Source: Arbacia lixula
Taxonomy: Eukaryota; Echinodermata; Echinoidea; Arbacioida; Arbaciidae
Length of the DNA stretch: 64,000 bases
NCBI GenBank assembly: GCA_963669155.1
Contig: OZ022579.1
Location: 23,879,770 to 23,943,769 of the forward strand
Direction of reading: 5' to 3'
Shown: in pieces, positions 33,504 through 62,850 of the stretch
Position numbering within the stretch: position 1 is the first letter of the stretch
How the letters are laid out: the number at the start of each line of letters is the position of its first letter
Program-made: the position numbers and the translations under genes
The notes under the pieces: model-generated
Database searches by the model: none
What the model was told of the DNA's origin: nothing
Seen by the model: the letters and a program-made list of their open reading frames with translations, nothing else

Positions 33504-33515
33504 ATACTACTACTG

Positions 33516-33566
<51 letters not shown>

Positions 33567-34908: not shown

Positions 34909-34925
34909 AACTTTTACCTTGTATG

Positions 34926-36400: not shown

Positions 36401-36414
36401 TCGCCGCAAACTCT

Positions 36415-37553: not shown

Positions 37554-37679
37554 ACGTGAATTGTCGCTTTCGACTCCAGCATTAAGCGCGCAACTGAGCA
37601 TGCGCAGTACTGGACCTAGCAGAAATTATGCTAAAATTGCCTAGTGCGCATGCGTTGGTGAAGCAGACGACATCACCAT

Positions 37680-37850: not shown

Positions 37851-37859
37851 ACCACAGAC

Positions 37860-38925
37860 GCCCAGCAAATTGCCGCATATGGGAAATTCCAAGATGGCGG
37901 CCAAACGTGTCCTCATGGAGCCCAAATAGTGTGCCCCGAGCTAGATAATGAACACTTAGGCCTAATGATTTAAGATGGCATGAGGATTTGTTGAACTCTG
38001 ATACCGATTGGTCAAATAATTTGAATAATCATTAGCGCTATTATGCTTATTACTGCACACCATTTGCTCCCAACTTCGCCTAACATGCTTAAGGCAAAAA
38101 ATCTTCGTGACGAACATTTTGAAAGTCTGACGGAATATTGCATTGTATCATTTTTAGTTTGGTGATATAAGGAAGAGAAATATAATTGTTAAATCGCACA
38201 GAAGCATGGTGCTATAGTACAATTTGGACAAAAAAGAAAGCAAGTGTAACTATTAACATGATTTAAGCTCGATTCCCAAGGTGTTGTGTGTCTTCGCTAT
38301 TCGCCGCGAATGTCTAGCAGAGGAAAAGGACGTATAGGTCATGAAGATGAAATTCCGTCGGACTAAACTAAGATAGTTCATCTCAAACCTTGCATTGTTC
38401 TTTGCTTAATTAGCATAATCATGTGCCAAGACGGACAGTTTGAATCTGACTGTTTGTGATTTTATCCGTAGTGAAAGGGTGTACTTAATGTTAACTGACT
38501 GAGTAGTGGTCCATCTCACCACTGGTCAATCTACCGTAGATCGAGAGTTAGGTCCACTGCTTACATTCTAAATTATACATAGGTCTAATTTCCTAAGATC
38601 TATCTGGTTATACGATCAGGGAGATGTCACTTAGAGTCTACATCACATGTCATTGAGATCTGCGATAGACTCAAGACAAAGTCTGTCACACATGCAACCA
38701 GCAGGTCTAACGTTAAGTTAAGTACAAGAGCAATATAACGGCCTTGTATGGGGCATTCACTTCATACAATTGTTTGCATATTGTAGGCTTAACGACAAAT
38801 GTTAGAGTATAAGTCCCATAAGTCTAATAATTTCAAGGTTATACTACAGTGCCTGGACCTTGTAAGGATTTGCTTTTTTCAATTGGTCTGACATAAATAA
38901 TTGTTATTATCCTCTTTCATACTGT
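37860..38925. other. Intergenic before the assembly gap
   Basis: AT-rich, no exon or repeat recognised on either strand. Confidence 0.4.
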
Positions 38926-39125
38926 NNNNNNNNNNNNNNNNNNNNNNNNNNNNNNNNNNNNNNNNNNNNNNNNNNNNNNNNNNNNNNNNNNNNNNNNNNN
39001 NNNNNNNNNNNNNNNNNNNNNNNNNNNNNNNNNNNNNNNNNNNNNNNNNNNNNNNNNNNNNNNNNNNNNNNNNNNNNNNNNNNNNNNNNNNNNNNNNNNN
39101 NNNNNNNNNNNNNNNNNNNNNNNNN
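38926..39125. other. Assembly gap of 200 N
   Basis: Exactly 200 undetermined bases. The true length is unknown. 39126-39780 beyond it shows no recognised feature. Confidence 1.
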
Positions 39126-39831
39126 TACAGCAGCTCCGAATGAGGCTATACAATCATAACTTCAAATATATTTACAATTTACAACATGTAGTATATTCAT
39201 CTTTCAGACGTTAACAAATACAAAGTCACTTTATAGCAACTTGCTTCAACTGGAGTTAACAGCGATTTGAAACTTCTTCTTTATTTCACAAGATGGCCCG
39301 TATTAGTTCCTGCGATTGTGCTGCACCTTCCACTCCACTGGTTCTCCCAATCGAAACCGCCACCCCTACCCCCTACCCCCTACCCCATTCAACCCCCAAG
39401 GATTGTTTATGTACAGCCCCTTTCTAATGTATTCTCGTGTTTATGATACATATTTCCTTGACCTCAAAGAACAAAGATTTATGCATGAATAGAAGGAAGT
39501 ATACATGAACTACGTGTTTTGTTTTGTTTTACTGCCACTAGTCAACATGACTGCTAGTCATATTGTATTGATAACTATGAGAGGACTGCTAGGTATGTAT
39601 AAAGAATTCAATCTTGAATGCAATAATCCGTGCTAGAAACTATACCAGACATCAGGGAAGCTCAGGTGTGTGTTATTGAGAAGGTAATTTGGAAGTACAT
39701 GTATGTTCATTCATTATGTAATATGACCTCAGTTATACATGCATTTTCGACTGAATCGGTGTATTAAATCACAAGTTGTCAATTATTGCATACTTCTCTG
39801 TCTCACCTTTTCTTAAAGGCTGATGTAAGTA

Positions 39832-41317: not shown

Positions 41318-41334
41318 ATGGCGGAGACAGAGAG
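41318..41334 (+). CDS. TMEM11: TMEM11 coding exon 1 (17 coding bases)
   Basis: ATG GCG GAG ACA GAG AG|GTAAAC encodes MAETE plus two bases of an Arg codon completed by exon 2. It sits in a locally CpG-richer stretch, as expected at a promoter-proximal exon. It is a prediction from splice phase and context, not from a conserved peptide. Confidence 0.6.
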
Positions 41335-44300
41335 GTAAACGAAGAGTTTAAAACATTTCATTTAGTTCATATTGTCTTTGTCAAATCATCATATTCTACT
41401 TCGTTTGTCTACTCCCAACTAAACCATTTTAAATGTCCATCGTTGGAATTATTTTTGCTGATTGTCTGTGGTGTGATTGACTCGGTGAGTGAGTGTGTGA
41501 GTCGAGCCCAGGGTAGTGCACTAGTGGTGTTTGCCTTGCCTGGCCAGCGCCAGACAACAAGGTAACTTTGTTGGGGTGATAAACAACATTAACGTGTTCA
41601 ATGAATAATCAGGTGTCCACTGTCTGGATCGATCAGGGTTGGTATTTTGAAAATCCATAGAGCTAAAAACTGTATCGCTCCTATGATAGTATTCCGAAAC
41701 TTATGTTACATGAGCTATACCAAACAATGGTCCAACTCCAAGTCTTGTGCATTCTGCATGAGACTCGCGCATTCAGGGTCCGACTCACGATTTCACGCAT
41801 GACACCCATTTTTCTCATGCATCAGGACCCGACAGAAAAAAAAAACAAGAAAAAAGTAACATTATTTGCTATAGATTTGCACTGGCCGCATTTTTGCACG
41901 AGCCGTCTACCGGCCAGCCACGCGAGACGAATCGAAGTGCAGCATATGTACGCGTATACGTACAGTTAAGGCCAGAAGTTTACATACACCCAGGAAATTC
42001 AAAGAAAAGTTGGCTCTTTCCAAACATCCTAAAACTTACTGTATCTTATAAAATATTTATCATGATGAATTTGATATAAAACAAATGAGTATGTCATGTT
42101 CCTTCATCACATTGCTTTGTAATGAGGAGCTGAAAAATATTTAGGTGTCATTTTTTCTCCCCAAATCTTCATATTTTGGACAAATTAAAAATAAAAACTT
42201 GACCAAAACATTTCATACATGTATTTGTGCTAGTTACTTCTCTACACAAACATTTCAGATTGCACTTTTTCTTCAGTAATGGCATATAAAATGTAAATAT
42301 AAATCATAGATTTGACATCTATTCTATTAAACAATATTTGAAAATATAATAAACAGTAGAATACATTTGGCATGAATATTAATTTGTTTTCTTCAAAGAA
42401 AATTCCAACTGAAATATGATTTAATCCCAACAGCATTCCAATCACATGAAAGAGTTTAATACACTCTTTCATTTGATACATGTACCAAATTTGTCACGGT
42501 AGTAATACAGGGAAACCCCGTTATAACGAGCACGGGTATAGCGAGAACCCTGTTATTACGAGGACATTTCTTGGGGCCCGATTTTTCTTCCATAGACCTC
42601 CGTGTATTCTGTTTTCATATAGCGAGATCGGCTATAGCGAAATTTCTGCTATAACGAGGCAAATTCCCAGCCCAAGAATACGGAAAAAGAAAAGAAATCA
42701 ACCCCGTTATTACGAGCACTTCTTTACAGCCACGCCGCGCAGCGAGGGAAATGCAACAACAGCACATAGTCAAGCAATTTTCTTTGAGCCGTTAAACACT
42801 GATCACACACACCATGCAAGAATCCACACACACACACACAGCCACACATGCATACATGTCCACATTACGTGTGTGCGGTACTGTCTCTGCCAGAGCCGTA
42901 TCTCTATACAGCTAGCTCTGGGTACTGCATGCCCCCGTGAAGTCACGCACTCACATGGCGCCTCTACACACATGCGACACCGCGCGTGTACGACCGGTCG
43001 TGCCTGGAGATTGCGTTCAATGATCATTCATTGCATACACGCGGTCATGCCAGCAGGCACGGCCGGGTAAATGAGCCTCCCCACTGCGTCATTTGTCGGT
43101 AAACGGAGGCGTTGGAAATATCATTTATTTACGTTTCCAACAGTGCTGTAAGATATTTTAGTGAATTGTTAGCTAGTGAATTCAATTTAGAATGCTTGCA
43201 AAGCTATTAAAAGATTACAGTACTAACGGTAAATATGTTATTATTTGTGTAGTCCTATATATGCATTTTTTCTGTATGTATTGATCACGTACTGGTATAG
43301 CGAGCAATCGGCTATAGCGAGGAAAAAGTGTGGGTCCCGATCCCCTCGTTATAACGGGGTTTCCCTGTATTGTTTCTGAAGATATCGTAAATTTTACGAT
43401 GTTTGGCAAGCAAACAAATTTTACTGAAGTCCATGGGTGTATGCAAACTTTTGGCCTCAACTGTACATGAATCGCATGCACATTGCATGGTTTTGTAGTG
43501 TACGTATGGCCATGGATCGTATGTACGTCGATATCGTGATGAAGCCCATCGAGCAACGTGTGTGTGCTACGCCGAGACGCTGAGTCATGAATATCTCACG
43601 CATAAAATTTTGTTGAACTTGGTATCTTTGCAATATTAATGAGGAGAGCAGCTGCTTTCCTGATTCCTGAGGCAGCAAAATTATGTCCTTTCATCATGTC
43701 TTTGGCATAACACCATCCGTGATGGTATGACGTCATGAAACTGACAGTGACATTGCACATCAATATTGTCTATCAGCGCGCCTTTACATGCAAAAATTTG
43801 AACGCGCGAATTACTTTTACACACAATGGAAAGGTATGGGCCTACATGTAGGTGCGTGAATCTGTAGATAAAATTGCTTGCGACATGTTAGGAGCAGTTT
43901 TATCTTTATCCTAACTCTTTATCCTAAGTGCATTTCAGTATACTGATTTAGCTCATTTGCATTATAAAAATTATCTCTGAGGCTCATTTACGTAAAATTT
44001 TTGTAGCTCATTTGAATAGAAATTGTATTTTTATCCTACACTGTACAAAGTATAATTTAACTTTAAAAATGATGGGTGTTTTGTAGTTCAATTCAACATG
44101 TGTCATACAGTGATTTTTGTCAGTTTATTTAATGATAAGCAGCTTAAAATTGACCAAATAAAGTAGGGTTAGGATCAGGACTAGAAATAGGGTCATAGTT
44201 GGGGAAGGTTGGGGTTTAGCAAGGTAATCGTCAAACCAACATTTTTTATCACACACCGCATCTCTTTGCTACAACACAGGTTTCACTGGCCTTTCAGTAC

Positions 44301-45901
44301 ACCCGCACACACTCAACTTTAAGTCCAGAGTAGAGTGTACTCGTCTCCAATGATGTTTAAATCTCCCAAATGATTATTGTTTATGTTATTCTGGTTAATA
44401 ATGCGAAATATGTTACTCATTGCGCATAATTCGCTAGTGATAATTGTTTGTCTTGCAATGTATGGTCTTTTTTTTATTCCGTTGACCATACATTGTGAGA
44501 CAAACGATTAATCACTTGTGTTATTCTGTTTAATTTAGATAAAGAGATCTAGGGGAATTTATACTTCATCGGACACGTCTACTATTGTGTGTGTGCACGC
44601 ACATGCTGAAAAGCCATTGTCTAGGATGAGAGTTGTGTTGCATGAATAAAATGGTTAGTCTTCGTGAATTTGGGGCCACAAAATTGCTCTAAAATCACAT
44701 ACTAACCTCTCTAATCCCTACCCTGACCTTACCATAATTTCTTTTCCTGATCCTAACCCTTAACTAATTTTGTTGAGTTTAAGCTGTTGATTCATCAAAT
44801 AAACCATTCAAATGTATCAAAATGAGGGAAGTTGCTGTCTAATGAAGTATCAAATCTCCAAGATCTAATATGATTGTGATTTAACTGATAATTTTATATC
44901 TTTCAGTTCTGTTTTGTTTTTTGCTGCTCTGACTGAGAGTGAGAGTCTGACTAAAGTATTCACAAACTTTTTGCCAGTGACAATAGTGGCTATTTGACTT
45001 TGAAGTAGAGGAAACTTTGGTGCCTGGTGCTCCGGATACATTCCATTAGCCCAAAGTTGAAAGTTAAAAGAAGCCTGTCACAATGATTTGTAGGGGTTGA
45101 CTCTGTCTATAGATATAAAGCATGCAGCGTCAATATAAATCATTAACTGTTATGTCCATCATAACTGAGAATGAATTAGTCAACAATGACAAGAGTCCAC
45201 CAATTATGCAGTTTTGTTCCATGATTTTGTTGTTTTGATTGGTGCAGAAATAAAAATAATATTTTTATGAATGGAAATTTGCCAAAAGTGACCTGTGAAT
45301 GTGATGTGTGCACCCCTGTACGTCTTATGAAATTATTGACTTGCTTCAATACTTAGTAACACATCTCCTGTTTGTCTGTCCATCCAGGGACCTTCAGCCT
45401 GTGGACTGTGCCATCATCCACAACATCTACGACAATGGCAGTGCGAGGGAGCACTTTGAGTTTGAGCTGGACCAAGCGCTGGAGGCGCAGCGGAACATCA
45501 TCATCATCGAGCCTTCCCACCTGGGTGACGAGACAGCCCGCTGGATCACCGTGGGCAACTGCCTGCACAAGACGGCCGTTATCTCGGGCATTTCGTGCCT
45601 GGTCGCGCCCGCCCTGCTCCCCACCCAGGCCACAAACTTTGTGGCGGTGCCCGCCGGTACCGTCAGTGTGGCGTGTGCGCTGCTGTACGGCGTCTCGTGG
45701 CAGTCGGACCCCTGCTGCAAGTACCAGGTGGAGTACGACACCAGAAACCTCTCCCGGCTACCGCTCCACTCACTGACCACAGCCACGCCCGTGGTGCTGG
45801 TGCGCAAGGACGATCAGTACCGCCGGGCTCTTCACAACCTGGTGGCCGGGCTTGCGGCAGCCCTACTGGCGTACAAAGTCTACCAGTGGTGCAGTCGCTA
45901 A
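41318..45901 (+). CDS. TMEM11: TMEM11, mitochondrial membrane morphogenesis protein (two coding exons)
   Basis: Exon 1 41318-41334 and exon 2 45388-45901 join in phase 2 to 531 bases, 176 residues, starting MAETERDLQPVDCAIIHNIY. The vertebrate protein is about 192 residues with a longer N-terminus. Highly conserved blocks: QALEAQ, IIIEP, GDETARWITVGNCLHKTAV, LYGVSWQ.DPCCKYQVEYD, LSRLPLH.LT..TPVVLVRKDD and LHN. Hydrophobic segments lie at about 68-84, 89-110 and 155-173. TMEM11 (PMI in Drosophila) is a mitochondrial membrane protein needed for normal cristae and mitochondrial shape. It has been linked to MICOS and, in later work, to BNIP3/BNIP3L at the outer membrane. Exon 2 is unmistakable. 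Exon 1 is inferred from a strong start context (A at -3, G at +4), the donor AG|GTAAAC, phase agreement and a fitting length. Confidence 0.9.
41963..43463. mobile_element. Tc1-like non-autonomous element in the TMEM11 intron
   Basis: Ends CAGTTAAGGCCAGAAGTTTA (41963) and, inverted, CAGTTGAGGCCAAAAGTTTG (to 43463), both flanked by TA. The AAGTTTACATACACCC continuation is the typical terminus of Tc1/mariner elements of the Sleeping-Beauty-like type. Without the pogo-like insertion it would be about 640 bp. No transposase frame. Confidence 0.82.
42508..43367. mobile_element. pogo/Tigger-like non-autonomous element, nested
   Basis: 860 bp with termini CAGGGAAACCCCGTTATAAC on both sides (about 24 exact bases), flanked by TA. 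Subterminal TATAGCGAG and TAACGAG motifs are repeated. CAGnnnAACCCCGTTATAACG is the signature of pogo/Tigger ends. The frame through it (42480-43070) has no DDE or CENP-B domain. Confidence 0.85.
44150..44780. repeat. Inverted pair of GGGTTAGGATCAGGA segments
   Basis: AGGGTTAGGATCAGGACTAG (about 44164) is mirrored at about 44745-44766. Looks like a decayed repeat; the hairpin element 44400-44519 lies between. Confidence 0.4.
44400..44519. mobile_element. 120-bp hairpin element with a 15-bp target duplication
   Basis: Sister of 34811-34908: the shared left part includes ATATGTTACTCATT and CGCTAGTGATAA. The right arm ends CAAACGATTAATCACTTGTG. Flanks GTTATTCTGGTTAAT (44385-44399) and GTTATTCTGTTTAAT (44520-44534) differ in one base. 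Confidence 0.75.
45388..45901 (+). CDS. TMEM11: TMEM11 coding exon 2
   Basis: Acceptor CCATCCAG at 45380-45387; 171 codons to TAA 45899-45901. GC-rich and free of repeats. It contains all conserved blocks and all three hydrophobic segments. Confidence 0.96.
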
Positions 45902-47870
45902 CAGGACCACCGAAGGCTGGTTGCGGAGAAGTGTACAACACAATTCTGTGTTTGTGTTGAAGACATGTAGGGATGCCGATGCCCCATATAATTCAGAAGG
46001 AGCCGTGTGCAGATGGGATGCACCATGAAAACCAGGTACTTGGTGCACATTTTGTGACAGGGTGCATTTCAACTGTGAAGTCAACTTGCCATTGGGTTTG
46101 TGGAATCCGAGAAGTAGTATCTGTTTGAAAGACGGCTGAGGCTAAGGATGCTGAGTAAAAGGATTGGAGTCAAAGGGATGTTATAAATGGATACCACTGT
46201 TTTTGTGAGTTTTGTGTGAGTGAACATCATACGTGTACATGTCTATTGAACTGAAGTTCTCTGTATTTCCTGGTTGGTTGTTCAAGTGAATGTACCGGTA
46301 ACTTCATATTGCTTTATTCGGCATGAGTATGAAAGTGTGACATGAAAAAGAAAAGAGTAACACATACCTCACTAGATGAATGCCAAATTCCTGATATTTC
46401 GCGGTATGAAAATGTTTGCTGTTTGACATCATTTACATACAGTCTGTAGCTCTAATTCCTTGATTCACTATAAATTGCCAAGTGTTACGTATTCAGGAAT
46501 GAGCTCTGTTCACATTAACATGCAGCACTTGACCCAATCTGCAATATAGATTTAAAATATATTTACTTACAATGTAAGTGACAAGGTATTGCAAACAGGG
46601 ATACCATTTCAGGCAAAATCTTGAATTTTTTGACTAGGCATATTCCACTTTAACTGACTGGCAGGCCAAAACAAAGAATATTGCTGGCACCCCCGTGGAA
46701 AATATTGTATACTCTGCATACACGACTGAAAAAATGTAGAACTGTGTACTGTACTTCAACTTCAGCGCCTGCCATTCCTTCCATCCGCTGTATTATTGCA
46801 TGTAAAAGCAGTATGTGTTGAAGACACGTAAAGCACATGAGAGTGCAAAAGAAATGGAGAAAGATTAACAAAAACTCCTGCTACTGTACATGTACATGTA
46901 CCACATGTCATTAGCTTGGCTAGAAACAATGATTATGAGCTTAGCGTGGAAAGTGTGTTTAAATGGAGTCGTCCTGCAAATGCAATTATTAATCACTATT
47001 AATCAATCTTAATCACTTTTTTTTAAGGCTACTATTTTCCTTCCTTGAATTGCTCTCATACATGTATGCACAGTAGGTAGCACACTTTTATTCCCCAACA
47101 CTGATGAACACTAGTTAGACTACTCTATAAACTGGTAGGCTTATGTATGTACTTTGCCAAGGTAATGGACAAAAGAAGTGTGTATCTTATATTTTGTCTT
47201 CCAATAGCTTCTGCATTTTCATTTCCCATTAATGGGATAATCTACATTGTAACCTGCAAAGTGTTTGGAAATGTATGAATTCCATGTGCACACTCTATGA
47301 ATTATCATGCATTAATCATCATTCGTATTGACTGGAACTACTGTGAACCTGTGTTGTAGATGTGAATTTGAATTAAGACGTACTGTACATGATACCTGCT
47401 TTATCTGTACCTTTAGCTTGTCAGTGCTTTGGGACTTGTGTATATTTCTGGCACATAAATGTATTAAAGCTTTCACTAAAGTGAGTATTGAGTTGTGAGA
47501 GCTTATATAAGGTTATTGAGTTTGTTAATTTTGAAAAAAAATCTGCAAGTTAAGAATATGCCTGGGCACGATTCATATCTTTACAAACTGTATTGGAAGA
47601 ACATAAAGTACTGGGCTCATTATTTTTATAATCAAATCTCCTTATTTTCAATTAAAAAGCAAGGTCATTGATGCAGATGTGTACTTGAACTAGGATTACA
47701 CAGTATAAATGAATAAATTTGTAAACAAAGTAAACTCAAATCCACCAGCAGATGGACATCAAATGTGCTATTGTGTAGTATTTATTCACTCACTACATGT
47801 ACATTATGTATGGAGCTGACATGATTTCTTATGATTTAGAACTTTGCACTATTGTACATTGATTTGTCAT
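45902..47870 (+). other. Presumed TMEM11 3' untranslated region and beyond
   Basis: AT-rich with no gene. Candidate poly(A) signals are ATTAAA at 47463-47468 and AATAAA near 47709; neither can be confirmed by sequence alone. Confidence 0.35.
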
Positions 47871-48083
47871 GAGATGCACAATAGTGAGATGCAGAGAGCC
47901 CTTCTTCGATGAAACGCAACCAACAGAAGTGTATATCCTTTGTGCAGATTATGGACATGTACATGTACATTTATTTGTCATGAGATGCACAATAGTGAGA
48001 TGCAGAGAGCCCTGCTTCGATGAAACGCAACCAACAGAAGTGTATATCCTTTGTGCAGATTATGGACATGCAAATGTACAACC
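47862..48083. repeat. Tandem duplication with a 111-base period
   Basis: ATTTGTCATGAGATGCACAA starts at 47862 and 47973; the copies are nearly identical for over 100 bases. The period is a multiple of three, so one frame shows a repeated peptide (FDETQPTEVYILCADYGH), but there is no other sign of coding. Confidence 0.9.
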
Positions 48084-48323
48084 GGTATGCTTTCTGCATT
48101 ATGTTTACCTTGTACCTTGCCCTTTCCTAAGTTTCCTTGGTTTATGATAAGGAAGGTCACTGTACTGTTTAAGATTTCTTGGTCAATAAGCCATTGTATT
48201 ATTCTCCAGTCAAGCAGACTGCTTTGATTCTTGCTACTTTACAACAGATAACATGTACATGTAGATGCTCACTGGATCTGTGCTTCACTGAAGCTCACAG
48301 AAAAAGCGTGCCACATAAGTTCT

Positions 48324-48634
48324 GGAGCCCGTATCACAAAGAGCTACAATTGACTGTACAATTGATAGATCAATGGTACCACTGATATATTGATTGTTAT
48401 AGAAAGAACCTACGATCAATATCAATCATAACTTGCAATTTATGTTGATCGTAGCTCGATTGTAACTACCAGTACCTGTATACGATCTATTGCAAAATCA
48501 TGCATAGACTTAGACTTGCAATAGAGAACAATGATGATTTGTAATACAGGGAGTTGCAAGAGATAGCAAGTTTACAATCATTTGCAAAGTTGCTGTAGAT
48601 AGCAACTCACTCTTTGTGATCATACAGGGCCCTG
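48324..48634. repeat. MITE with GCCC...ATCACAAAGAG termini, copy 1
   Basis: Ends GGAGCCCGTATCACAAAGAG and, inverted, CAGGGCCCTGTATGATCACA then AAGAG. The interior is full of short inverted AATTG/CAATT and GATCGTA motifs. Copy 2 is at 56371-56761. Confidence 0.7.
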
Positions 48635-48958
48635 ATCTGCTACTTAGACCCAATGTTTCCTTAGCCTTGGACTATAGGTGGGGCTTATACTGCCCTACTC
48701 TGACAAGAGGAAGCAAGTGACAAATCACTCAAATCTGGGTGATTGGTATTCTTAGATTGTACCCAGCATTCCCTACATATGGCCAAAATCTGGACAAGAA
48801 ATATTCATCTTGCTGCGAGATATTCAATCTAACATGATGTGGTGTTGCACTGATGCCAATGCAAGTGACAGACATATTTTGCTCATTTACAAGAAAAGTC
48901 TATTTTGTTAGTTGCTTCCTTTTATCAGATTAGGGCAGTATACATGTACCGGTATGTA

Positions 48959-50287
48959 CAGCTTACTCTCGATACAACGAGCACGGATATAACGAGGTTT
49001 CGTTATAACGAGAGAAATCTCTCGGTCCCAAAAGTTTCTACATGCAAACCTATGGTGCACCACGTCGCTTATAACGAGCACGGTTATAACGAGATTTCGT
49101 TATAACGAGCTTATTATGTTGACCCCAAGACAAAGAAAAACATAACTATTGCGTCGTTGCGTTACAACGAGGAAGGAAAAAAAATCAAGGGCTAGCTAGT
49201 TGAAAGCAATCTTCTCAAAAGATTGAAAACACATGAAAACACCGGCACCGCAAAGAGCCAGACACACATGTCTCGTAATACATGTCCACGCAACGCGAGC
49301 ATGTGCACAGCTTATGATACACTGTACACCACTCCTTCGCACATGCACAGCCTAATGTGCCGTGAATTGAAAGCGCATGGTTTGCGAGTCCGATCCACTG
49401 AACATCACGGCAATACATACAATGATACGACGCGGCGCGTGCTGAATTGGGGGTGTGTCTGATGAGCAGCGATTGATTGGGTTTCTTGCCAGAAACTAAT
49501 GTGATCTCGGACGGGTGAAGTTTATTTCACACACGAAAATATAAGAAAGAAAGAATTGAAGAGATGATAAAATATTCTTCTTTAAATTGATATACCACCG
49601 GAAATCATAATCACGATATAAAATGAAATATAAGTATGCAGGGGTAGCGTTAATCTTCTACATGGAACCCCCTCGTAACAATTTTGGAATGACCCAGAAA
49701 AGAAAGTGCCGATCATAACGGTGTTGCTACGTCATCGCAAACCTATCAGACGAGCGAGACGCTCTTAACTAAATCCACCTTCCCCTTATTTCCCGGCCGT
49801 TCGGCCCGTTGCGCCGCCCTTTCTCTTGTTTGTCCTAACAACTCGACCGCATGTTTTCTTGTCCAGAAAATTACGAATCGATAACAATTTTTTTGACCAG
49901 TTAATTTACTTTCAAAATAACACCCATCGTATCAGGAATGGTCTATAATTCATTGAATGCAATTAGCAATTAAAACGGCAAAAATATATCAAAGTCGGAT
50001 GATGTGTTGAGCACAAATAAATCCCCCTTTCAGTTTGAAAACGCATATTTCTTTAACCCCCTTTTCAGTTTGAAAATGCACGTTTCAAATACCTTTTTTT
50101 CAGTTTGATAACGCATGTTTCCAAGACGCCTATGGATATAAACACATAGTAAAACACAATGAACACACAAGCACACATGTTTCAATGTATTTTATTGTTT
50201 TTTTATTCTGTTTGGATACAACGAGGTTTCGTTATAACGAGGAAAAAGCCCTGGTCCCGACGACCTCGTTATATCGAGAGTAAGCTG
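48959..50287. mobile_element. Second pogo/Tigger-like non-autonomous element
   Basis: 1.33 kb, ends CAGCTTACTCTCGATACAAC and, inverted, CAGCTTACTCTCGATATAAC, flanked by TA. Subterminal GGTTTCGTTATAACGAG is repeated at both ends. No transposase. The ends differ from the 42.5-kb element, so it is a separate family. Confidence 0.85.
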
Positions 50288-50477
50288 TACTTTCTTAGGT
50301 AGGATATCGCACAGAGCTTAGACCATTTCTTGTTCACACTGGGTTTTACCCAAGTGGCCCATCAATGGTATAGGATACTTTTATAAATCCTAGAAGACCA
50401 TTTTTGTAATTATGTGTTCACAATTCTATTTTAATTTACGTTGTTCAGACAATATGTTTCTTAATGGTAATCCTAAT

Positions 50478-51600
50478 GGGTTAGGCCATTTCCTGACCTA
50501 CTGTTAATCTGACCTAGTCTTTCTGACCTAGTTTTTTGCCATTCACTCAGTACGGCCTCTGTTATTGGCTACTGTGCTAATGAATATTCAAGACTATAGT
50601 ATGGTTTGTCGAACATTCGCGCCGGCGCGGCCAAAGAGGCGGCCAGGAGGCGCAATTTTTTCGAACATTCGCGCCGGCGCGCCCAAAGAGGCGGCCAGGA
50701 GGCGCAATTTTTTCGAACATTCGCGCCGGCGCGCCCAAAGAGGCGGCCAGGAGGCGCAATTTTTTTTTACACGCTAGCTCTATATAGACGCCAGAGCTTT
50801 TCACAGCTGAGAGAGAAATCCTTGCTCTCTGCAATCGGCCACAGCCTGCGAGAGCACGCTCATGCCGATATCAGCTGTTCCTTTGTACCATTGTATGTGG
50901 GTAATGAGTTGATATAAGGACACTAGAAAACCTATTACTGTGCACAAATGCCATGTTGTGATAAAAAGTTGAGTAAATAGATATGTGTTTGTGTTATAAT
51001 TATTTCATGTTTGCTAGGTTTTATTAGACTATTTATTATTTTTTTATCTGTCCCTCCCGACATGATGCTCGAAATCCCCTAGAGCAAAATGGAATCTCCC
51101 GTCTCTTTTTCCCCAAATCTCGCTAGAGAAAAAAAATATTGGAGTCATCGACTGTTTGATAGGGGTGCATAATAAATTTCTACCAAAAATATTCCTTATT
51201 CAATCATTCAATAACATTCTCATGAGATGATGTATTCTTCAATAATACAACAAGGATAAACAAATTCACTTTTATCTTATTGTCCAACAAAAATCCAGTG
51301 TTTTTTACATTATATTTTCTTTCTGAGAGCACCGTCCCCTTTTTCTGTAGTGGAGCAGTCCGGCGCCGGCAATTCCCGCGTGGACTAGCGCGCCTCCAGC
51401 TCACCAGCTCCTGGCGATGGCCGCCTCTTTGAACGGCGCGACGTTCGACAAGCCATACCATCGTCTTGAATATTCATTAGTACAGTAGCCAATAACAGAG
51501 GCCGTCTCATGAAAACTGCCTCGTGTACAAAATGAATGGCAAAAAAACTAGGTCAGAAAGACTAGGTCAGATTAAATAGGTCAGGAAATGGCCTAACCCA
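50478..51600. mobile_element. hAT-like fold-back element with an 8-bp target duplication
   Basis: The ends GGGTTAGGCCATTTCCTGAC are inverted copies, and homology of the arms continues for about 180 bases (to the GCGGCC region). ATCCTAAT flanks it exactly on both sides (50470-50477 and 51601-51608). The 8-bp duplication points to the hAT group. The middle lacks a transposase. Confidence 0.82.
50609..50764. repeat. Three tandem 52-bp GC-rich units
   Basis: TCGAACATTCGCGCCGGCGC starts at 50609, 50661 and 50713, each unit ending GGCGCAATTTTT. A diverged single counterpart is inverted near 51414-51455 in the other arm. Lies inside the hAT-like element. Confidence 0.92.
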
Positions 51601-51609
51601 ATCCTAATG

Positions 51610-54600
51610 CTTATCTGAGGTTTCTCTGAGTAGTAGTGCTAATACATGGAGCTTCAGGGTGTGTTCCATCCATTGAAGATACAGTAGAATGTAATAACAA
51701 AGAGGCAGTGGGGGGAAAGTTATGAATACATTACGAAATTCCAAGCCTTTATATCTGTCAAATATTGCAGGGTGTAGAATCCCAGCGTAAAACAGTCTCA
51801 ACACATAGTCTGGGATTAAGGATAGTATGGGGCTGATAGAAAGGTGTAGTAATGCTGAGTATGTCTGTATACCAGCATTACCAGCATGTATTAAGTATAA
51901 TGATAATAATAGACTGCAATAAAAGCTCTGTATGATTTGCCCTGCAAATACATGTACCGGTAGTATGCAGGTTCACCTGTCCTTAACCTGTTGAGCACAC
52001 TTATACTACTGAACTGAAATACTGAACTGGACAAAATATACCGTGGTCTAAAACTGCAGGTCCTTCCCTTTCTTCCCTTTCCCTTTACCCGTGCCAATTC
52101 CTTTGAGCTGTAGTGTATTAGGGCTGCGTGAATACTGGTCCAGGAAGGATGTCAAAATTCTCATGGAACTGTAATAACCAAGGGGGTGTGGATTAATTGC
52201 ACGCTAAAAAGAAAGTTTATTCATACTTCTTATATTACCCGCACAGAAGATTATGCAGGAGTTGTGCTGCTCACTACATTATACATGTATGTATCTGAGT
52301 GGAGAAAAGCCAGCCCGCGTACATACAGGCTCAGTAAAGGTTAAAAGCACCGAGTACAGCTACGTGTAGACTGTAGACTGTTCAGCCTGTATTATAAATA
52401 CATAGGACATCAGCATGACAAGGTAACCTGTAAATGAACTGCATGACTCATGTGTTGTACAGATGTGGGTGAACTTTTGGACTTGGAGGGGATACTACAG
52501 GTTAAAGTGAGAGTATGGTCCGGTTTCATGGGAAGTTTGAACCCTAGCCTGATCCACGCTGTGATGTACATGACCAGGATGAGGTTGGGAACATGGACAA
52601 ATTGTGTCCACACAGTGATTTTGGTCCCTTATGAATAACATAAAATCATGCCACAATATAGCATGCTGCCCCTCTCTTGCAACTTAGCTGGTTATTTTGC
52701 AAAGTAGACCAACTTTTTCTGTGCAGATTTCCTGACTAGATAACGCACTGTTTTGACAACACGGGAACAATGAAGACGCAAATAGTGCTCAATTTTCTTA
52801 TTGGGCTCCTTTCCTGTCGGGTCAGAAATTATCATGCTAGTTGGTGTAATGATTGAAGAAGGCCCCTATGGTACATTCACATACATTGTATGTACCACAT
52901 CGATGAATGCATGTTCATGTAGCTACAATGTACTGCATTGTTATCTGAAAGAGATTTGAAACTGTTGTGGATGTGGGACGTACATGTATTGGCAGTTGTC
53001 AGGAAGAAGAGACAAAATAATTATATGAAGTGGTATGTAATGTGACATGATTGCATCAAAGTACTGAATGTATCTCCTCACAAAATCAAAAACAAGTCCT
53101 TATTACATATCTACAGCTTCTTCCAAAATGTTTTTGAAATATTCTTATATTCTTAAGACCAGGGTAGATTATGTGTACATGCCTTGTGTTGGGTTTCTTT
53201 TGTTTTCAAATGAAATGAATAAGAATGAAGCTTACAATCTCTTTAAAACTGCCAATTTGTTTGCTGTTCAAGGTTTTACCCTTTCTGTGTCAGAGAGAAT
53301 ATAGCTGTATGAGAGTTGTGTGTATTGATGGTGAAATAATTCACAGCTTGTACTTCAAGGGTTAAATGGCCTATACCTGGAATGTACATTTTTAGAAATA
53401 TTTCATTCTTAATATGAAAAATGTTTTTTCGCAAGAACCTTTGATAGGCAGCATGCAAGGGAAATGCACAATTTGTATGAATGCCCTCCAGTTGATCAAG
53501 CAGTCTTTTCAACCTTCACATCATTCATGAAAATGTACTAATCTCTGCGACTCCAAATTCAAGGCAAAAGCTTGCTCTTCTATCGAGCCAAATTCGTAGA
53601 AATATTAGGTATTAGAGTGATGATGAAATGTTACTTGGCCAAATATTCTTGAGCAATACATTGGCTACAAATGCAAATTCTGTCACGTAGCACACGTAAA
53701 TGTACTTGTAGTCCATGCTTTGAATTATGATTATATGTGATACTTGTCTGCCTCTTGGATTAAGCGTGAGTCAACTTTGATCTGCCGTAGGGATTAATGC
53801 TTAATCCCCTAATCTTACTGTGGATTAGAGGGGTGATCTATTAAGTTGAAGGTGTAGTGATGAGCTGTGAAAGGCCATGATCATCATCGTGTGTCACCTT
53901 TTTTGTCACTCCTATCAGAAAATTTGGAACAGCTCTGTCTGGCTGTTGTCTAGGATTTTGCCTTTTCTTTCTGTAACATGTTTTTAATGAAAAGAACATT
54001 TCAACATTTTTTTGCAAAACTTTGGGTTCATTTTTTCTTTAAATTATTTGTTTTATCCCAATTTGTCTTTTGAAGGGTGGAGCTAGATAGGGTCTAACTG
54101 ATTAGCAAATAGCTTTGTTGACCCTATGGAGTTTCATATATATGCAAATTAGAGGTGCTTTTATATAAGATATTTTATTCTTAACCTCCCAAAATTGTAA
54201 CGACACACTGTACACACAGTTTGTTATTTCCGGGCGAATGTAAGTAATTCTGTATACATCTACCTTCATAAATAAGTTTATATGCTAAAGGAAATTTGGG
54301 TCTTTATGTAATGAACAATTTTTTTCTCTCTTTTTGTTGATTTCATTTGCCCGCAAGACATTTTGAAGAAACATCGGATTGGTCTTATGTATGCCACATG
54401 CAGCCTCAGCATAGGTGTACATATTATTTTCTTATTTTGACTCTGAAATCTATAAATCATTCTCAATATACTCTTGTGCAATTTGAAATGTACATTTAAA
54501 GAAGAGTTTGTGAGTGTAATTTTCCTATCTCTCAACAACTGTTAATGCCATGTGTAAGTAGAATGTACAAGCCCTCACTTCATGTGTGAATGTTAAGTTT

Positions 54601-56365
54601 TCTTTTAAGCCTACAAGATACTCTGCAAAATGAATTACTGGTATCAGGTGTGTAATTTCATTTTAAAGAATTACAGTATTTGTGTTGTGTGCTATGTGTT
54701 ATTTTGTTTTGTTTTTCAATTATTTGTCAGTGTACATGTACACGGAGCTTCATTATGTCTGCAATTAAATTGCTTTGCTTCTGGGATTTTTGTTCTCCTT
54801 TTTTTTTTCATTAAAAAGATGAGAAGAAAATCTTTAATTATCAATTTATCATATATTGAAGATAGTCTTCATAATTATATTTGGCAAATTTAACTGCTGA
54901 AAGTTAGTAATTAAACAATTTAACACATTATTTATGTCATTCAGAGTACAGCATTCATGTTTACGATGCCACTCCGTGATTGCATGTAGACACGGTAGTG
55001 ATTTCCCACTCTGTAACTTTGAAACCCAGTAGATTATCATTGTTACGTCATTTGTGCAAATTGCATTGTCTCTGTGGCTTCTCAGAATCTAGCTCAAAGC
55101 TAGCTCAAAGCTCACCAGGCATTGTTGCAACGTGCATGGTTATCTCCCTGTTTTGATACATGATGAACTGATACACGTGCATGGCCATAAGAAACACTTG
55201 TCAATAATGTAACAGCCTCCATGTGTAGGTGTATTTCTCATTTGTACCAGTGGTTTAGGCACATCTGGGGATAAATGAGATAATGCATTATATTAAACTA
55301 ATATACTCTGCGTTTAAATACAAAATAGTTTCAATGATGAAACAGGTGAATGCCTCATTGCCAGTGGTTTGGGCACATCTGGGTATTATTCAGAATATGT
55401 GTAATATTAAGATGATCTACTATGCGTTCTAGACAAAATCTATATGCCCAATGGGCCATGTGTAAACTAAGGTAATTATGTATGTGCCATGATAGTTTGT
55501 TTTACTCCTGTCTTAATCATGGATAACCCATGAGAGTATTATAGTCTGCATATTTACTGGAAGTCCTTCAGGGAAACAAAAGATCAAGCTTTCTATCTGG
55601 AAGCGTCCGTGGTCAGTCCCATTGATGCATGTAGCTGTAGGCACAGTCATGCATCTTGGAGATATTTTCTGAATACCAACAAATGTTGACTTGACCATCT
55701 TTTTAATCGATAGTCATGTTGTGAGATGAGTATTTGCAGACTAAACCTTTGAAGATATGTAAAGGTAATGACAAGTATTTTCCGACCAAATATCCAGTTT
55801 TTCTGCTTATCCTTACCTTCATATGACCTAGGAATAGTGGCCTTGTAGAGTGTGATGTGTGTGGTGGGAAAAACTTATGAAAATTCATATGTACTAAATA
55901 CTGACCATACTTATGGTATGGTTATGAACAGAGGGCATGTAAAACAACAAGTGGACGGTTAAGCCAAAAAAAAGTACTGTCGAGACTTTAAGTCACATGT
56001 GTATGTAAAGAAACAGAAATACATTGTTACATAATGCTACACCTATTATGTGTTGATATAAATGGTAGACAGACAGGAATTTGATATGTAAAAAATGCAC
56101 AGAGATAAAGATTTACAAGTCTGTCACTTTGTACAGAAATAAAACTTGAAATTGATGAAGAATTAGTGGATTGTTGTTTCACTTGATTTTTTTGTTATGT
56201 GGATGTCTGGAGAATATTTGAAGTGATTATTATAGCTCAGCCTAGAATGCCAGTGCACTGCATTTGATTGTGATGTGAGTTTTGGGGAGATTAACATTAC
56301 ATGTATTTTGTGTATGTGTATGGGTATGTATTTGAGCATGATTGTGTTTTTATGTGTGTGACTTT
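51610..56365. other. Intergenic between TMEM11 and DHRS7B, no gene
   Basis: AT-rich, with many ACATGTA and TGTACATG words and one short fold-back at about 53270-53368 related to 27950-28047. AATAAA at about 56141 is an isolated candidate. No exon or RNA gene recognised. Confidence 0.4.
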
Positions 56366-56370
56366 CTCTC

Positions 56371-56761
56371 TGGGCCCAGTATCACAAAGAATCAGCTGCT
56401 CCATGTATCTATAGCAATTTTGCGATTGATTGCAAAGTTGCTGTCTACTGCAACTCGCCGTAGCACAAAATATCACTGCTCTCTTTTGTAAATCCAAGCC
56501 TACATGTGTATGCATAATTTTGCAATCAATCGTATAGTTGCAATAGATCTACGCTAGCTACTATTGATATCAATTGCAAGTTGTGATCGATATTGATCGT
56601 AGATTCTATGTGATATGGGTTTACGATTAAATCGTATCATCGAAAGCCCTTTCACTAAAATCTAGCCTAATATCAATCATATCATCGAAAGACCAGTCAT
56701 AGGATTGATCTACCGATTGTATGATCTACATGTATTGTCGCTCTTTGTGATCCAGGCCCCT
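56371..56761. repeat. MITE with GGGCCC...ATCACAAAGA termini, copy 2
   Basis: Ends TGGGCCCAGTATCACAAAGA and, inverted, GGGGCCTGGATCACAAAGAG. Interior motifs TTGCAATAGATC and GATCGTAGAT as in copy 1. Confidence 0.75.
56642..56668. repeat. 26-base piece of the SINE-like family inside the MITE
   Basis: GAAAGCCCTTTCACTAAAAT followed by CTAGCC is the same sequence as the SINE-like family near 1.6-1.8 kb. It is flanked here by ATCATATCATCGAAAG-like direct repeats. Confidence 0.55.
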
Positions 56762-56769
56762 GATTATGT

Positions 56770-58041
56770 CTGTATGTGTATACATGTATGAAAAAAAACT
56801 TTAAAAAGATATTAACAGTATTGTCTACTACAATCACCACAATTTTATTGGCAATAATTTATTAGTGGTACATGTGTATATAAAAATCATTGCATGATTG
56901 GTACGTACATAGCACATGAATTTTAAACTATTTACAACTCCTGCAAACAAAACAGGAAAACATAATTATTTGAATAGTACAGTATACATATGTATTCTGA
57001 TAAATGTTAGCTGCTTTGAATAAAAAATTCCAACTTCGATATCACCGTCTCAGGCACATAATAATCCATTATAAAAAAAAATCATGTAATACCAAAAGAC
57101 AATCATATGACCACTACAAACATATCTAAATATATCCAGGACAGCATGAATAGAGTTTGACATAAATGATACACATTATGCTTTCAGAACACATTCAAAT
57201 TTTAATTGCACTACTTAAAAGTTGATAAAAGTACTCCACCGAAGTTCACCCCCCCCCCCCCCCCCATCTTTATTCACTACACCAACAACTGTGCTACATT
57301 TGCTGACTTAAGAAAAAAGCAATTACTCGCTGGTTTGGAGAGCCGTTTCATGTCATGCTAGAGCAGTTTTGTGCTAGAGAGTCGACAATTAATTGGTACC
57401 AGTATGCTCTCCCTGTTGCTACATTCTTGGACTAAGTTTGAGGTTGTCTCACTGTGTGGACAGTGTGTATAAAATCTGAATAGAAGTGTTGCTTGAAAGA
57501 AGCCCCAGCCTTCTTTAGTATCCCACACAAAATGTATAGGAAACTGAGGAATAAATACAAGCCCCTCTCTAATACTGTACACATGTCTCAGTTGAGTACT
57601 GGTAATGTGTTTTTCTTTTATATGGTTAATAAAAACGTTCTCACTTTGATTTAATCCCTCCACACAGTGCAAACAATCTCCTACAGTCCACTCCCTTTAT
57701 AACTACATGCTCAGGACCAAGTTTATATCCTTGATACAATGAAATACATGTATACTGAACATACAGGCACACAGACACATGTACACAAATTTGAAGCTGG
57801 GACCAGCAGAATTGCTTTGTTATATTGAAATCTGGTATCTGTGCTTGTAATAATGGGAGTATTAACACCTCTATCTGCTTAGATGAAAAAGGAATGAAAA
57901 AGGAATGGCTCAGAGAGGTTCGACAGTGGATGATTTGGCCATACTTCACGCTTCACAACATCTCATTTCTGTCACTTCCAAATTAAAAGCACTCCTGGTA
58001 TTCCAGCAATTTTCTTTTCTCCAAAAATGTCCCAAACATCT
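56770..58041 (-). other. Presumed DHRS7B 3' untranslated region
   Basis: No other gene. A C run is at 57249-57265. On the minus strand AATAAA (57269-57274) lies about 770 bases after the DHRS7B stop and is a candidate poly(A) signal. Confidence 0.35.
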
Positions 58042-58244
58042 TCAATCTTCTGATTGGCCCCCATTAAGCGCTCTCCTTGCCATGATCCAGAAATACAGAT
58101 TGGGCAACAGCGCCCTCAAGTAGATGGCCGCACCGTGGACGAAGGGTCCCACCACTGCATCACTCTGTTGCATAGCAACTGCATCCACAATGCGGGCTGC
58201 CATGTAGGTTGTGGTCATGCCCTTAGCGATGGTTGAATCCATTT
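58042..58244 (-). CDS. DHRS7B: DHRS7B, last coding exon (partial gene)
   Basis: On the minus strand the acceptor CTATCACAG precedes 203 bases encoding 66 residues to TGA. They start MDSTIAKG, continue with AARIVDAVAMQQSDAVVGP, then AIYLRALLPNLYFWIMARRA and a short hydrophilic end. In human DHRS7B the same place reads MDTTTAQG, then [34 protein letters not shown]. Length, order and spacing agree. The protein is a short-chain dehydrogenase/reductase; mammalian DHRS7B (PexRAP) reduces acyl/alkyl-DHAP in ether-lipid synthesis at peroxisomes and ER. The cofactor and catalytic domain are encoded upstream, beyond the right edge. I found no other exon of it up to 64000. Its 3' end faces TMEM11. Confidence 0.75.
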
Positions 58245-58466
58245 CTGTGATAGGGGATGAATGAACATTCAGCCATGTTGGTAATGTATTCACAACTTTT
58301 CCACTATGTGCTTAGTATCATGGTATTACAATAACTTGCATTAGTGGGGTAGCTTAGTGAAAATATTGTGACACGGTGGACAAAAGCATGATTTTTTCAC
58401 CAAATAATCTTATGATGTACCTTCTTAAAAACGGCTATGCTCCAAGAAAATTGATGCTGGGAAAGC

Positions 58467-58922
58467 GTTGCCATGGTAACCAAAAGTTGACCAAAATTTA
58501 TAGTGCAAATTACTTCCACAGAATTTAAGCAATTAGTGTTAAATTTGGTATATACGACGATCTAGGAGTGTGGTTGCAAAAAACACCCTTTGCGATTGTG
58601 TGCCACCTAGCGTTGCCATGGTAACCAGATATTTTGGCAAAACTCTTGCTGAGCGAACTACTTCCACAATATTGAAGCAATTTAAATCACACTTAGTGTT
58701 CATGAAGACACTGGGGTATAGATGTGCAAGACATACTCTTTTGTTTTTGGGACAAAGCGTTGCCATGGAAACTGTACTCCAATAAAGCGTTGCCATGGGA
58801 AACACATCTTTTTGCATTAGCATGAGGCATTTAAGGTATTATGATCAAATTTGGTATGTACGATGTGTAGTTGTGCAAATCTCCCTTTGAGTTTGGACTG
58901 GACAAAGCATTGTCATGGTAAT
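58467..58922. repeat. Degenerate tandem units carrying RFX-type X-box motifs
   Basis: GTTGCCATGGTAAC at 58467-58480 and 58612-58625, GTTGCCATGGAAAC at 58759-58772, GTTGCCATGGGAAAC at 58789-58803 and ATTGTCATGGTAAT at 58909-58922. The main spacing is about 146 bases, with weak similarity between units (GCAATTTA, GTTGTGCAA). The first two are near-ideal RFX X-boxes (GTTGCC..GGTAAC). Confidence 0.75.
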
Positions 58923-59199
58923 CATGAACTTTTGGTAAAATCTTGTTGAGCGAATAACTCAAAAAGAACTACATACCACATATAGACAACTGATTTTTAA
59001 CCCAAGTCGCATTCTTTATGATCACATGAGTTGGATATACCGGATTAATCACCATCAGTGATATTTCTAGTTTGCTCTGTTTTTCAATCTTCTTGGCACC
59101 AGAATTGATGTGTCATTACTAGTATGATACGTTATGCATCCGAACACATCAAGGATGTTTAAGCGCATTAGAGCGCCAGCAGCCATTTACAGCCAAATG

Positions 59200-60168
59200 G
59201 CAGGCACCGGAAAATACGCTTATTTTATTTTCAGCGGGGTAGTCGTGACCTTCACTTGACCTCTCGAACCCCGAAAAAGGTCTCCTTTTCAAACTGCGAT
59301 ATTTCCATTAATAAACCATATTTTTGTACACTTTCTTTTGCAACTGTTTGTTGGTGGTCGAAATTTACCAAGTGTAAAAAAATATTTCATTAAAACAGGG
59401 AGAAAAATATTGTAAATTCGAGATAAATATGTGGTTCTAATAAAAAAAAATGAAAATAAACTCTATATTTCAATGTCAATCGATTTTGAGCCCCTAACAT
59501 TTAGAGGTCATCTGAAGCGGAATTTACTGTACTTTATGGAGATACCATTATTTTTCAACCTCCCCCCATAGAAGGGTCAGGATCCAGCAAAACATCAACC
59601 ATGTTCAAATCCAAAATGAGCGAGATATGACGAAGTTGTGAACGATCCTAACCAGCCAAATTAACGAAATGCCACCGGCGATCCAAGGGTCGTGGACTAT
59701 GATTGGCTGGTTAGGATCGCTCACAACTTTGTCATGTCTCATGCAGTTTGGATTTGAACATGGTGGATATTTTGCTGGATCCTGACCCTTCTACAAGGAG
59801 AGGATGAAAAAAAAAATGGTACTTTCACAAAGTACAATAGATTCCGCTTCAGATGATCTATAAGTGTTGGGGGCTCAAAAGTGATTGACATTGAAATGTA
59901 GAGTTTATTTTCATTTTTCTTTATTTAATTAGAGCCACATATTTATCTCGAATGTGCAATATTTCTATGTCTGTTTTCATTGAATATTTTTTCATACTTG
60001 GTAAACTTCGACCTCCAACATACAGTTGCAAAAGAAAGTGTACAAAAATATGGTTTATTCATGGAGATATCGCAGTTTGAAAGGGAGACCTTTTTCGCGG
60101 TTCGAGAGGTCAAGTGAAGGTCACGACTACCGAGCTGAAAATAAAATCGCGTGTTTTCTGCTGCCTGC
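59200..60168. mobile_element. Nearly 1-kb hairpin element with about 445-base arms
   Basis: Arms 59211-59659 and 59703-60156 are close reverse complements: GTAGTCGTGACCTTCACTTG at 59240 with its mirror near 60130, AGGGTCAGGATCCAGCAAAA at about 59574 with its mirror near 59785, and AACCAGCC at the tip. The loop is about 43 bases. No coding sequence. A transcript would form a long, nearly perfect stem. Confidence 0.88.
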
Positions 60169-60172
60169 GGAC

Positions 60173-60560
60173 GAATATTGGTTGCGAAGTCCGTATAATT
60201 TCTGAAAATTTGCGTCACTTTGAAGCACAAACATTTTATTTTTGAGCCCAAACAAAATTGGAATCAAATTCTCCGCTGGAGTACTGGCTTTCCAAAGTTG
60301 TAACTGGTGTGCCGTCCAATTTATAGAAGGGTCAGGATCCAGCAAAGTCAGAGAGCTTACATATATATTGGTTGCGAAGTCCGTACGATTTCTGAAATCT
60401 CGCGTCACCTTGAAGACGAATAGCACAAATGTTTTATTTTTGAGCCCAAACAATATTGGAATCAAAATCTCCGCTGAAGTATCGGCTTTTTAGAGCCGTA
60501 GCTGTCGTTGCCGCACAATCCATAGAAGGTTCAGGATTCAGCAAGGTCTGAGAGCTTACA
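60173..60560. repeat. Tandem duplication with a 191-base period
   Basis: GGTTGCGAAGTCCGTA at about 60179 and 60370. Each unit contains TTTTATTTTTGAGCCCAAAC and ends near AGAGCTTACAT. GTCAGGATCCAGCAAA links these units to the neighbouring hairpin. Confidence 0.85.
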
Positions 60561-62850
60561 TGTTTAAAAAAAAATTGAGGCCTGTTATTGAAAGCAAATA
60601 ACATAAAAACCCCTTTGAGGATCTCGAAAAAAAATGAAAATATTTATTAAGAAACATATAATCTCAATCCCTGGCTAAAAAAATCCTGATCAGTATGCTT
60701 ACAGAAGACACCAGCAAAAGATCTCGTGAGCATGTCGAATTCCTTCATAATCTAGGTGCAGCAAAATTTGCGCGTGAGATTTCGCGAGACGAAAAATAAA
60801 ACGCTCACCATTTCTATAGAACGAGCGAGCGCTGCCGATTGACTGTTTAATTAATGCAGATTCATTAAACTTTCCTTCTAGTCACAAAAGAATTTTTATT
60901 ACATTTTCCCTTTGATCTATACGTTTAATTCTCTGGATGAGTTTTGTCTGGATTTGACGTATAAACAAATCGGATGCACAAAAGTGTTTGGAGAAATATC
61001 CTCACCCCATATGTTTGCGCAGTTGTGGCATGTAATATCTACGATGCATGTATAAAGATTCAATTGAGGAATATTGTTACAATATAGCAAAAAGGCTCTA
61101 AACGTGATATCAAGTTGCAGTACAAAAGTCTCAGTTTCACAATATGCCGCATGATATGCGATTAAAAAATTGCATGAAACGTTACTTTCAGATATTTAAC
61201 ATGAAAAATGTGTCCAGCTGCGCCCAAGCTGGTATTTTCATCTAAAAAATATCAAACTTTATGTCCGCTTGTTCTTATTAACGACATTTAACAAGCACTT
61301 ATAGTGACATTAACAGTTCAGCAACAAAAGTGAAATGTATGCATGTATAGGAATGTGTATGACCTATTATACAATCCAGGTGAACGTGACGCAATCGCGT
61401 ATCCATCGTATTATTGAGAGCAGCTGCTAGCACGAGGCGGCTTCGCGAAGATGGTAGAAAGAATTCCAGTGAGCTGTATCTCCAGCTCGCCGAGTACCTC
61501 TTTCATCACATATGAACACTAACAAGATTGTACATGTCTGACCAGACAAAGTATCTCATTAATGATTAAAAGATTACCTTGCACCTGGCGAGTTGTGTTA
61601 ACAGTAGGCTAAAAAAAACGTGCAGATACAGGTCACTTACTCTTTTATTTATGCATTAATTTTACTTATCTATTTTATTGTATTTTACGCCTCTTATATC
61701 ACTCATATTTTTTCACTGATAATACCTGGCTTATTCAGTTGATATAAGGTAAAACTACTATAATCTAACGTCATCATTGGCTAGGAAAAGTACAATATAA
61801 CGGCTTGATAAAAAAAAGTAATCGTATGCTTGAACTTCAACCAATGCTTACAAGCAGTTGCTCCCTTTTATGTGTATGGCTTAGTGTACAGTTTAAACTT
61901 CTTAGAATCAATCAATCATGAACCCGTAACTATACTAGTGTAGATAAATATGCTTGGTCCCCATTTACAGAGACACTCAGAGAAGCATCAGTCTAATTCT
62001 GGTGTAAAGGCATGAACTAAAAAAACGCATTGCAAAAATGATTTTTTACCCAACTGTGAATTACCCAGTTCTGGCCTATGTGTAAAGCTATGCGGGCTTA
62101 AAGTTGATTGGCACATACTTCATCAAATTAGATCTAATGTATGACCATAACACACCCTAATACACCTATAATAATGCACACAAACACTCACTCGAATTAG
62201 ATTTTGACCAACCTATGCCCCGTTTAAAGTTGTTAAGACGGGTCTGGTGGTAAAGACTAGCAGAGACTATGGCACAAGTCTGCTTATTTTCCCCTTTGTT
62301 TTCAAAGTGCAGTTCATCTTGAAGAACAATAAATCGCACCATTTTCATGAAAGGTGATGCAAAGGAAAGAAAAATTATTTGTGACTTCTACTTCAATCAA
62401 TTTTGTGCATAGTCTCTTTAATTTTACTCCCTTTCCAGCCCTTCATATTTTTTTAATGTAATAACACAAATTTGCATGGGTGGGACTCACTCTTGTTTTT
62501 TCTTAGCAAATGTACACATCATCATTGAAATTACAATACGCTTAAACAGTTAAGAAAATATCTATTACAGTAAAAACTGATTTACTCACATTTGTATTGA
62601 CGGAAATTTCTTAAATAAATCATCTGGATCCAGAAAAAGATGAAAATAGCTGTCTCTGCAACCCCACTGCTTTCTTTGAAACTTCAGCATAGAGGGTCTA
62701 CATTTCAACTTTTGACCAATCAGAAGCCAGCATTCATAGGAGTCAGGGGAATTCCCTGTTACGCTAGTCTATAAATGCAGACACATTGTCAGACAAGTGG
62801 AACTTTTGAAATTATGTAAATTAAGGCTAATTACAAATGATTCGAGTCAG
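60560..62850. other. Likely DHRS7B intron, no exon seen
   Basis: AT-rich sequence with no further DHRS7B exon, no RNA gene and no recognised repeat. TACTAGTGTAGATAAATATG-like unique sequence only. Confidence 0.4.

Follow-up and report, generated by a model that had tools for sequence, protein, structure and literature searches.

The TMEM11 gene

In the window (the whole stretch of 64,000 nucleotides of Arbacia lixula DNA that was analysed), a predicted TMEM11 gene on the plus strand faces the end of a DHRS7B-type gene on the minus strand. The coding ends lie tail to tail, with 12,140 bases from stop to stop. This agrees with the initial annotation, which had placed TMEM11 on the plus strand and the last exon of DHRS7B on the minus strand, facing each other with 12 kb between them. 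The features of the pair are as follows.

41318..41334, plus strand: TMEM11 coding exon 1 (17 bases, MAETE and 2 further bases; assigned from the sequence and splice sites)
41335..45387, plus strand: TMEM11 intron (4,053 bases; two nested terminal-inverted-repeat elements inside)
45388..45901, plus strand: TMEM11 coding exon 2 with the stop codon (Pfam PF14972; identity to human TMEM11)
45902..58041, no strand: intergenic region, both 3' UTRs included (repeat-bearing; six-frame Pfam recognised no gene)
47463..47717, plus strand: first ATTAAA (47463) and first AATAAA (47712) past the TMEM11 stop (possible 3' end; motif search only)
57269..57655, minus strand: ATTAAA starting at 57655 and AATAAA starting at 57274, each the first of its kind past the DHRS7B stop (possible 3' end; motif search only)
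58042..58244, minus strand: final coding exon of a short-chain dehydrogenase/reductase (SDR) of the DHRS7B type (tblastn and alignment scores)

The TMEM11 start codon is the ATG at 41318 and the stop codon ends at 45901. The donor AG/GTAAAC and the acceptor CATCCAG/G were read from the sequence, and joining the two exons at these valid GT and AG sites gives an open frame of 176 residues. The exon 2 frame (171 aa) matched Pfam PF14972 Mito_morph_reg with an E value of 4.7e-73 (244.6 bits, cut-off 27) over the full length of the profile (positions 1-159 of 159). Using tblastn, human TMEM11 was found to be 58.8% identical to the product over 165 residues (E 2.2e-68); the reference proteins in all our comparisons were sequences written out without a database entry. 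The gene is thus predicted to be a complete two-exon plus-strand gene, and its putative product is the orthologue of the mitochondrial morphology protein.

The intron carries an element of about 1.5 kb (41960-43466), the outer arms of which (41960-42047 and 43379-43466; 88 nt, 76%) we take to resemble Tc1/mariner ends. A second element (42504-43371) with arms of 27 nt that are 100% identical (42504-42530 and 43345-43371) is nested in the outer one.

The DHRS7B-type exon

The exon on the minus strand is preceded by the acceptor TATCACAG/AA, remains open throughout and ends with the stop codon at 58044-58042. The 66 residues from its first ATG correspond to residues 259-324, the C-terminus, of human DHRS7B, and 22 of them are identical in an ungapped alignment (E 5.5e-8, tblastn against the 64 kb). 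This was the best of the 37 DHRS7B HSPs listed at E <= 50, the runner-up having an E value of 3.5. When the exon was aligned to four references, the only ones used, the scores were 107 for DHRS7B, 52 for DHRS7C, 28 for the DHRS7 tail and 23 for the HSD11B1 tail, and the respective maxima in 500 shuffles per comparison were 45, 45, 36 and 46. Among these references, the tail of the exon is therefore nearest to DHRS7B; DHRS7C is still a detectable relative, since 52 exceeds its shuffle maximum of 45, and the DHRS7 and HSD11B1 tails stay within the shuffle range. DHRS7C gave no match to the exon among the 54 HSPs listed at E <= 50 (tblastn). The assignment to DHRS7B proposed in the initial annotation thus held in the alignment to DHRS7B and DHRS7 (107 vs 28), and no better-fitting SDR was found among the four references. 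By these comparisons, the exon is predicted to end a gene of the DHRS7B type (PexRAP, an acyl/alkyl-DHAP reductase). In an invertebrate, the expected state is a single DHRS7B/C gene that has not been duplicated.

No Pfam model matched the exon tail. When the open frame of 89 residues, 23 of them read from the intron, was compared with PDB sequences by phmmer, nine sequences were returned, none of them an SDR by name. The best of them, 8prj (v31Bagel8), reached a whole-sequence E value of 7.3e-11 and was rejected as spurious: this value is summed over seven designed repeats, none of which passes singly (i-values of ~300 or higher), and the aligned residues 4-39 are half intron.

In 58246-64000, the three minus frames gave one Pfam line at E <= 10 (UL145, 0.11, below its cut-off) and no SDR, and tblastn of DHRS7B gave a single HSP (E 18) and no further exon. 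The SDR core exons, with the Rossmann nucleotide-binding motif and the YxxxK catalytic motif, were not found in this stretch and would be located past the window edge; the last exon is the only DHRS7B exon found within the window. We infer that it is part of an intact DHRS7B-type gene extending past the window edge.

The intergenic region

The six-frame Pfam search of 45902-58041, read through stops, gave one line at E <= 1, a ThrE match (E 0.19, 11.6 bits vs a cut-off of 26.3) that was discarded as far too weak. TMEM11 and DHRS7B are adjacent in the sense that no Pfam match at cut-off lies between them, a measure that Pfam-less genes could escape. If the two transcripts ended at the closest canonical poly(A) signals, about 9.5 kb would lie between them; such motifs are common by chance and constitute weak evidence. 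Nothing points to control of either gene by the end of its neighbour.

Six direct repeat families and six inverted pairs were found in the region. Because of these repeats and its 12 kb length, the gap does not seem to be tightly constrained. The perfect 34-base inverted pair 50504-50537/51542-51575, with arms about 1 kb apart, brackets three 52-base tandem copies, and 50504-51575 is probably a small non-autonomous DNA transposon. The CpG observed/expected ratio is 0.55 in 45902-58041; for four further stretches of the window it ranges from 0.72 to 0.85.

Comparison with vertebrates

The vertebrate neighbourhood of the pair is human 17p11.2 (the Smith-Magenis region) and mouse 11B2; human TMEM11 and DHRS7B presumably lie tail to tail. 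A published mouse gene list runs Shmt1, Dhrs7b, Tmem11, Gtlf3b, Gtlf3a, Map2k3 (PMC2990707). In a table for the pig, DHRS7B, TMEM11, NATD1 and MAP2K3 are given as lying downstream of a single lncRNA (PMC11240794), and axolotl dhrs7b, tmem11 and natd1 are termed physically linked in the text concerned (PMC6473073). A human DHRS7B-TMEM11 chimeric RNA is reported in a class whose two parts match opposite chromosome strands (PMC5861515), which implies that the two human genes lie on opposite strands. Taken together, these publications support linkage of the two genes in all four species (human, mouse, pig and axolotl). The initial annotation had the human genes as direct convergent neighbours; linkage is borne out by the papers and opposite strands are implied, and the precise convergent order is presumed. 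Furthermore, the synteny of dhrs7a, b and c is described as conserved across vertebrates in the relevant part of a tilapia study.

Like the vertebrate DHRS7B-TMEM11-NATD1-MAP2K3 neighbourhood, the window has TMEM11 adjoining DHRS7B, on opposite strands as is implied for human. Unlike that neighbourhood, it holds no recognised NATD1 or MAP2K3, and an MFS transporter exon (25827-27170) and retrotransposons lie upstream (5') of TMEM11. A tblastn search with NATD1 (62 HSPs at E <= 50) did not find this gene in the window: the best HSP (20239-20328, E 0.053) lies opposite a retrotransposon frame, and the HSP at 30109-30174 (E 0.071) was not accepted either.

Origin of the adjacency

The best explanation is probably that the two genes were adjacent in the common ancestor with vertebrates and have never been separated, by passive retention. 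The adjacency would have been present already in that ancestor and would have been inherited passively, no rearrangement breakpoint having been fixed between TMEM11 and DHRS7B. Both genes are presumably compact and of a housekeeping type, so that a special 3' mechanism would be unnecessary, and the gap would meanwhile have been free to gain repeats. We infer both the common descent of the adjacency and its passive retention from the window and the vertebrate literature. A great age of the linkage, "very old" in the initial annotation, would fit this one window and the published vertebrate passages, because TMEM11 in the window is only 59% identical to human TMEM11.

Chance recurrence was estimated under two assumptions. 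With a full shuffle of an assumed 20,000 genes, a given pair would be adjacent and convergent with P ~2.5e-5, and about 0.125 human convergent pairs in total would be expected to recur. When genes are shuffled within groups of an assumed ~1,000 genes, about 2.5 convergent matches are expected genome-wide. Inheritance is therefore favoured over chance recurrence.

Several points stand against inheritance. The invertebrate side consists of one window with only one DHRS7B exon, the comparison depends on the reference sequences described above, and NATD1, the next vertebrate gene, was not found in the window. Retention is moreover not the default, since vertebrates lost 84% of the bilaterian-ancestor blocks in the account of Robert et al. 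(PMC8851819) and the convergent orientation is less common in conserved pairs. In the part of the survey of conserved eukaryotic pairs that bears on this, divergent and co-directional pairs are much commoner than convergent ones, and metazoan convergent pairs have a mean gap of 34,165 bases (PMC2871058). A convergent pair 12 kb apart thus has the orientation with the least reason for retention and an ordinary distance.

The initial annotation called such conservation unusual, which is an overstatement. Deep conservation of local gene order is an established pattern in animals: Robert et al. (2022) place 256 blocks, each of at least three genes, at the bilaterian ancestor, and three shuffled sets gave 45, 48 and 56 (PMC8851819). 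The TMEM11-DHRS7B pair resembles these blocks in that unrelated genes were long kept adjacent, and differs from them, as the blocks are described there, in being one pair in one window instead of at least three genes within five intervening ones. It also resembles genomic regulatory blocks with bystander genes, as outlined for Synorth (PMC2745767), in which unrelated genes are held together; unlike in those blocks, the scanned stretches showed no recognisable developmental regulator close to the pair. The pair is probably one more case of a documented pattern and a modest addition to it. Deep animal microsynteny blocks were reportedly also the subject of Irimia et al. 2012. If found in several phyla, the pair would provide a clean two-gene test of passive survival vs hidden co-regulation.

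Alternative explanations

Selection may have kept the pair together, removing breaks between the two, if cis-regulatory elements or a chromatin domain, in one of the genes or in the gap, were needed by the partner or a third gene nearby; the two would then form a genomic regulatory block or a co-regulated pair. Other animal microsyntenies are described as subject to constraints of this kind, and co-expression is higher in gene-dense blocks than in random ones (PMC8851819). The proteins themselves offer a further argument, and the statement in the initial annotation that they have no known common function is debatable. TMEM11 and its fly orthologue PMI are described as shaping mitochondria (PMC11325201), and the fission that mitochondria of brown fat undergo in the cold is described as requiring peroxisomal lipids (plasmalogens) that DHRS7B/PexRAP helps to make (PMC10541902). 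Both proteins would therefore bear on mitochondrial shape, TMEM11/PMI directly and DHRS7B/PexRAP via plasmalogens; the functional tie that can be conceived on these grounds is an indirect one. However, the pair includes no developmental regulator, its gap spans 12 kb and bears repeats, and convergent pairs, which lack a common promoter, are under-represented among conserved pairs in the survey cited above (PMC2871058). Our literature search returned no paper joining PexRAP with TMEM11 and none joining TMEM11 with microsynteny. We consider selected retention unlikely. Its most specific form, selection since early bilaterians acting via a shared regulatory domain that coordinates the synthesis of ether lipids in peroxisomes (DHRS7B/PexRAP) and the morphology of mitochondria (TMEM11), is highly improbable; if true, it would amount to an operon-like coupling of two organelles through gene position.

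Coincidence inside one ancestral chromosome is a real rival to inheritance. The genes would have belonged to the same linkage group and been joined independently in two lineages. Linkage at the scale of chromosomes persists while local order shuffles, and two hemichordate genomes are reported to have kept their chromosomes with no apparent microsynteny between them (PMC11175523). Shuffling within groups would also yield the few convergent matches genome-wide estimated above (~2.5). Nevertheless, a particular pair would still recur with a probability of about 1 in 2,000, and inherited local order exceeds that in shuffled controls in the comparison of Robert et al. (PMC8851819). We regard such a coincidence as quite unlikely.

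The comparison also depends on the identity of the exon, which might come from a lineage-specific SDR paralogue or be a stray or dead fragment, the real DHRS7B orthologue lying elsewhere. An identity of only 22/66, a DHRS7C score above its shuffle maximum (52 vs 45) and the 5.8 kb beyond the exon without another DHRS7B exon would be compatible with this. On the other hand, the DHRS7B score is double that of DHRS7C, the DHRS7 and HSD11B1 tails do not beat their shuffles, the frame is open and has both an acceptor and a stop, and introns of several kb are normal here, that of TMEM11 being 4.1 kb long. A paralogue or fragment is thus very unlikely. Should the pair be confirmed in several phyla, it would serve as a simple orthology marker distinguishing DHRS7B from DHRS7C in invertebrates.

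Overlapping 3' ends or shared 3' regulation, which the initial annotation offered as the explanation, have a negligible chance of having kept the pair together: the convergent orientation is the layout that permits overlap and very long 3' UTRs are conceivable, but the stops are 12,140 bases apart and the first AATAAA motifs at 47712 (plus strand) and 57274 (minus strand) leave about 9.5 kb between them, so that an overlap appears improbable from the sequence.

Other features of the window

Outside the pair, the following features were recognised.

2999-3292, plus strand: possible EF-hand exon (EF-hand_5, E 0.0002; 21.1 bits vs a cut-off of 25.9)
17343-22534, minus strand: non-LTR retrotransposon (uninterrupted 1,292-residue frame with endonuclease, reverse transcriptase and RNase H)
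22947-24524, minus strand: reverse transcriptase frame of 525 residues (RVT_1, E 2.3e-8)
25827-27170, plus strand: MFS transporter exon (MFS_1, E 2.5e-12)

Scans of the window returned no tRNA and no Rfam match. A six-frame Pfam search of 27930-38880 gave six lines with E values of 0.049 to 0.6, none of which reached its cut-off. A run of 200 N at ~38900-39150 is an assembly gap or a mask. The MFS exon is, we presume, monocarboxylate-transporter-like; more MFS exons may sit near 7728-7976 and 27579-27923, where no Pfam match was found at E <= 0.1. We take the tail of the 525-residue reverse transcriptase frame to be GIY-YIG nuclease-like, as in Penelope-like elements. In the non-LTR retrotransposon, a 467-residue frame preceding the 1,292-residue frame carries zinc-knuckle-like motifs, as judged by eye, and the element looks young and possibly active.
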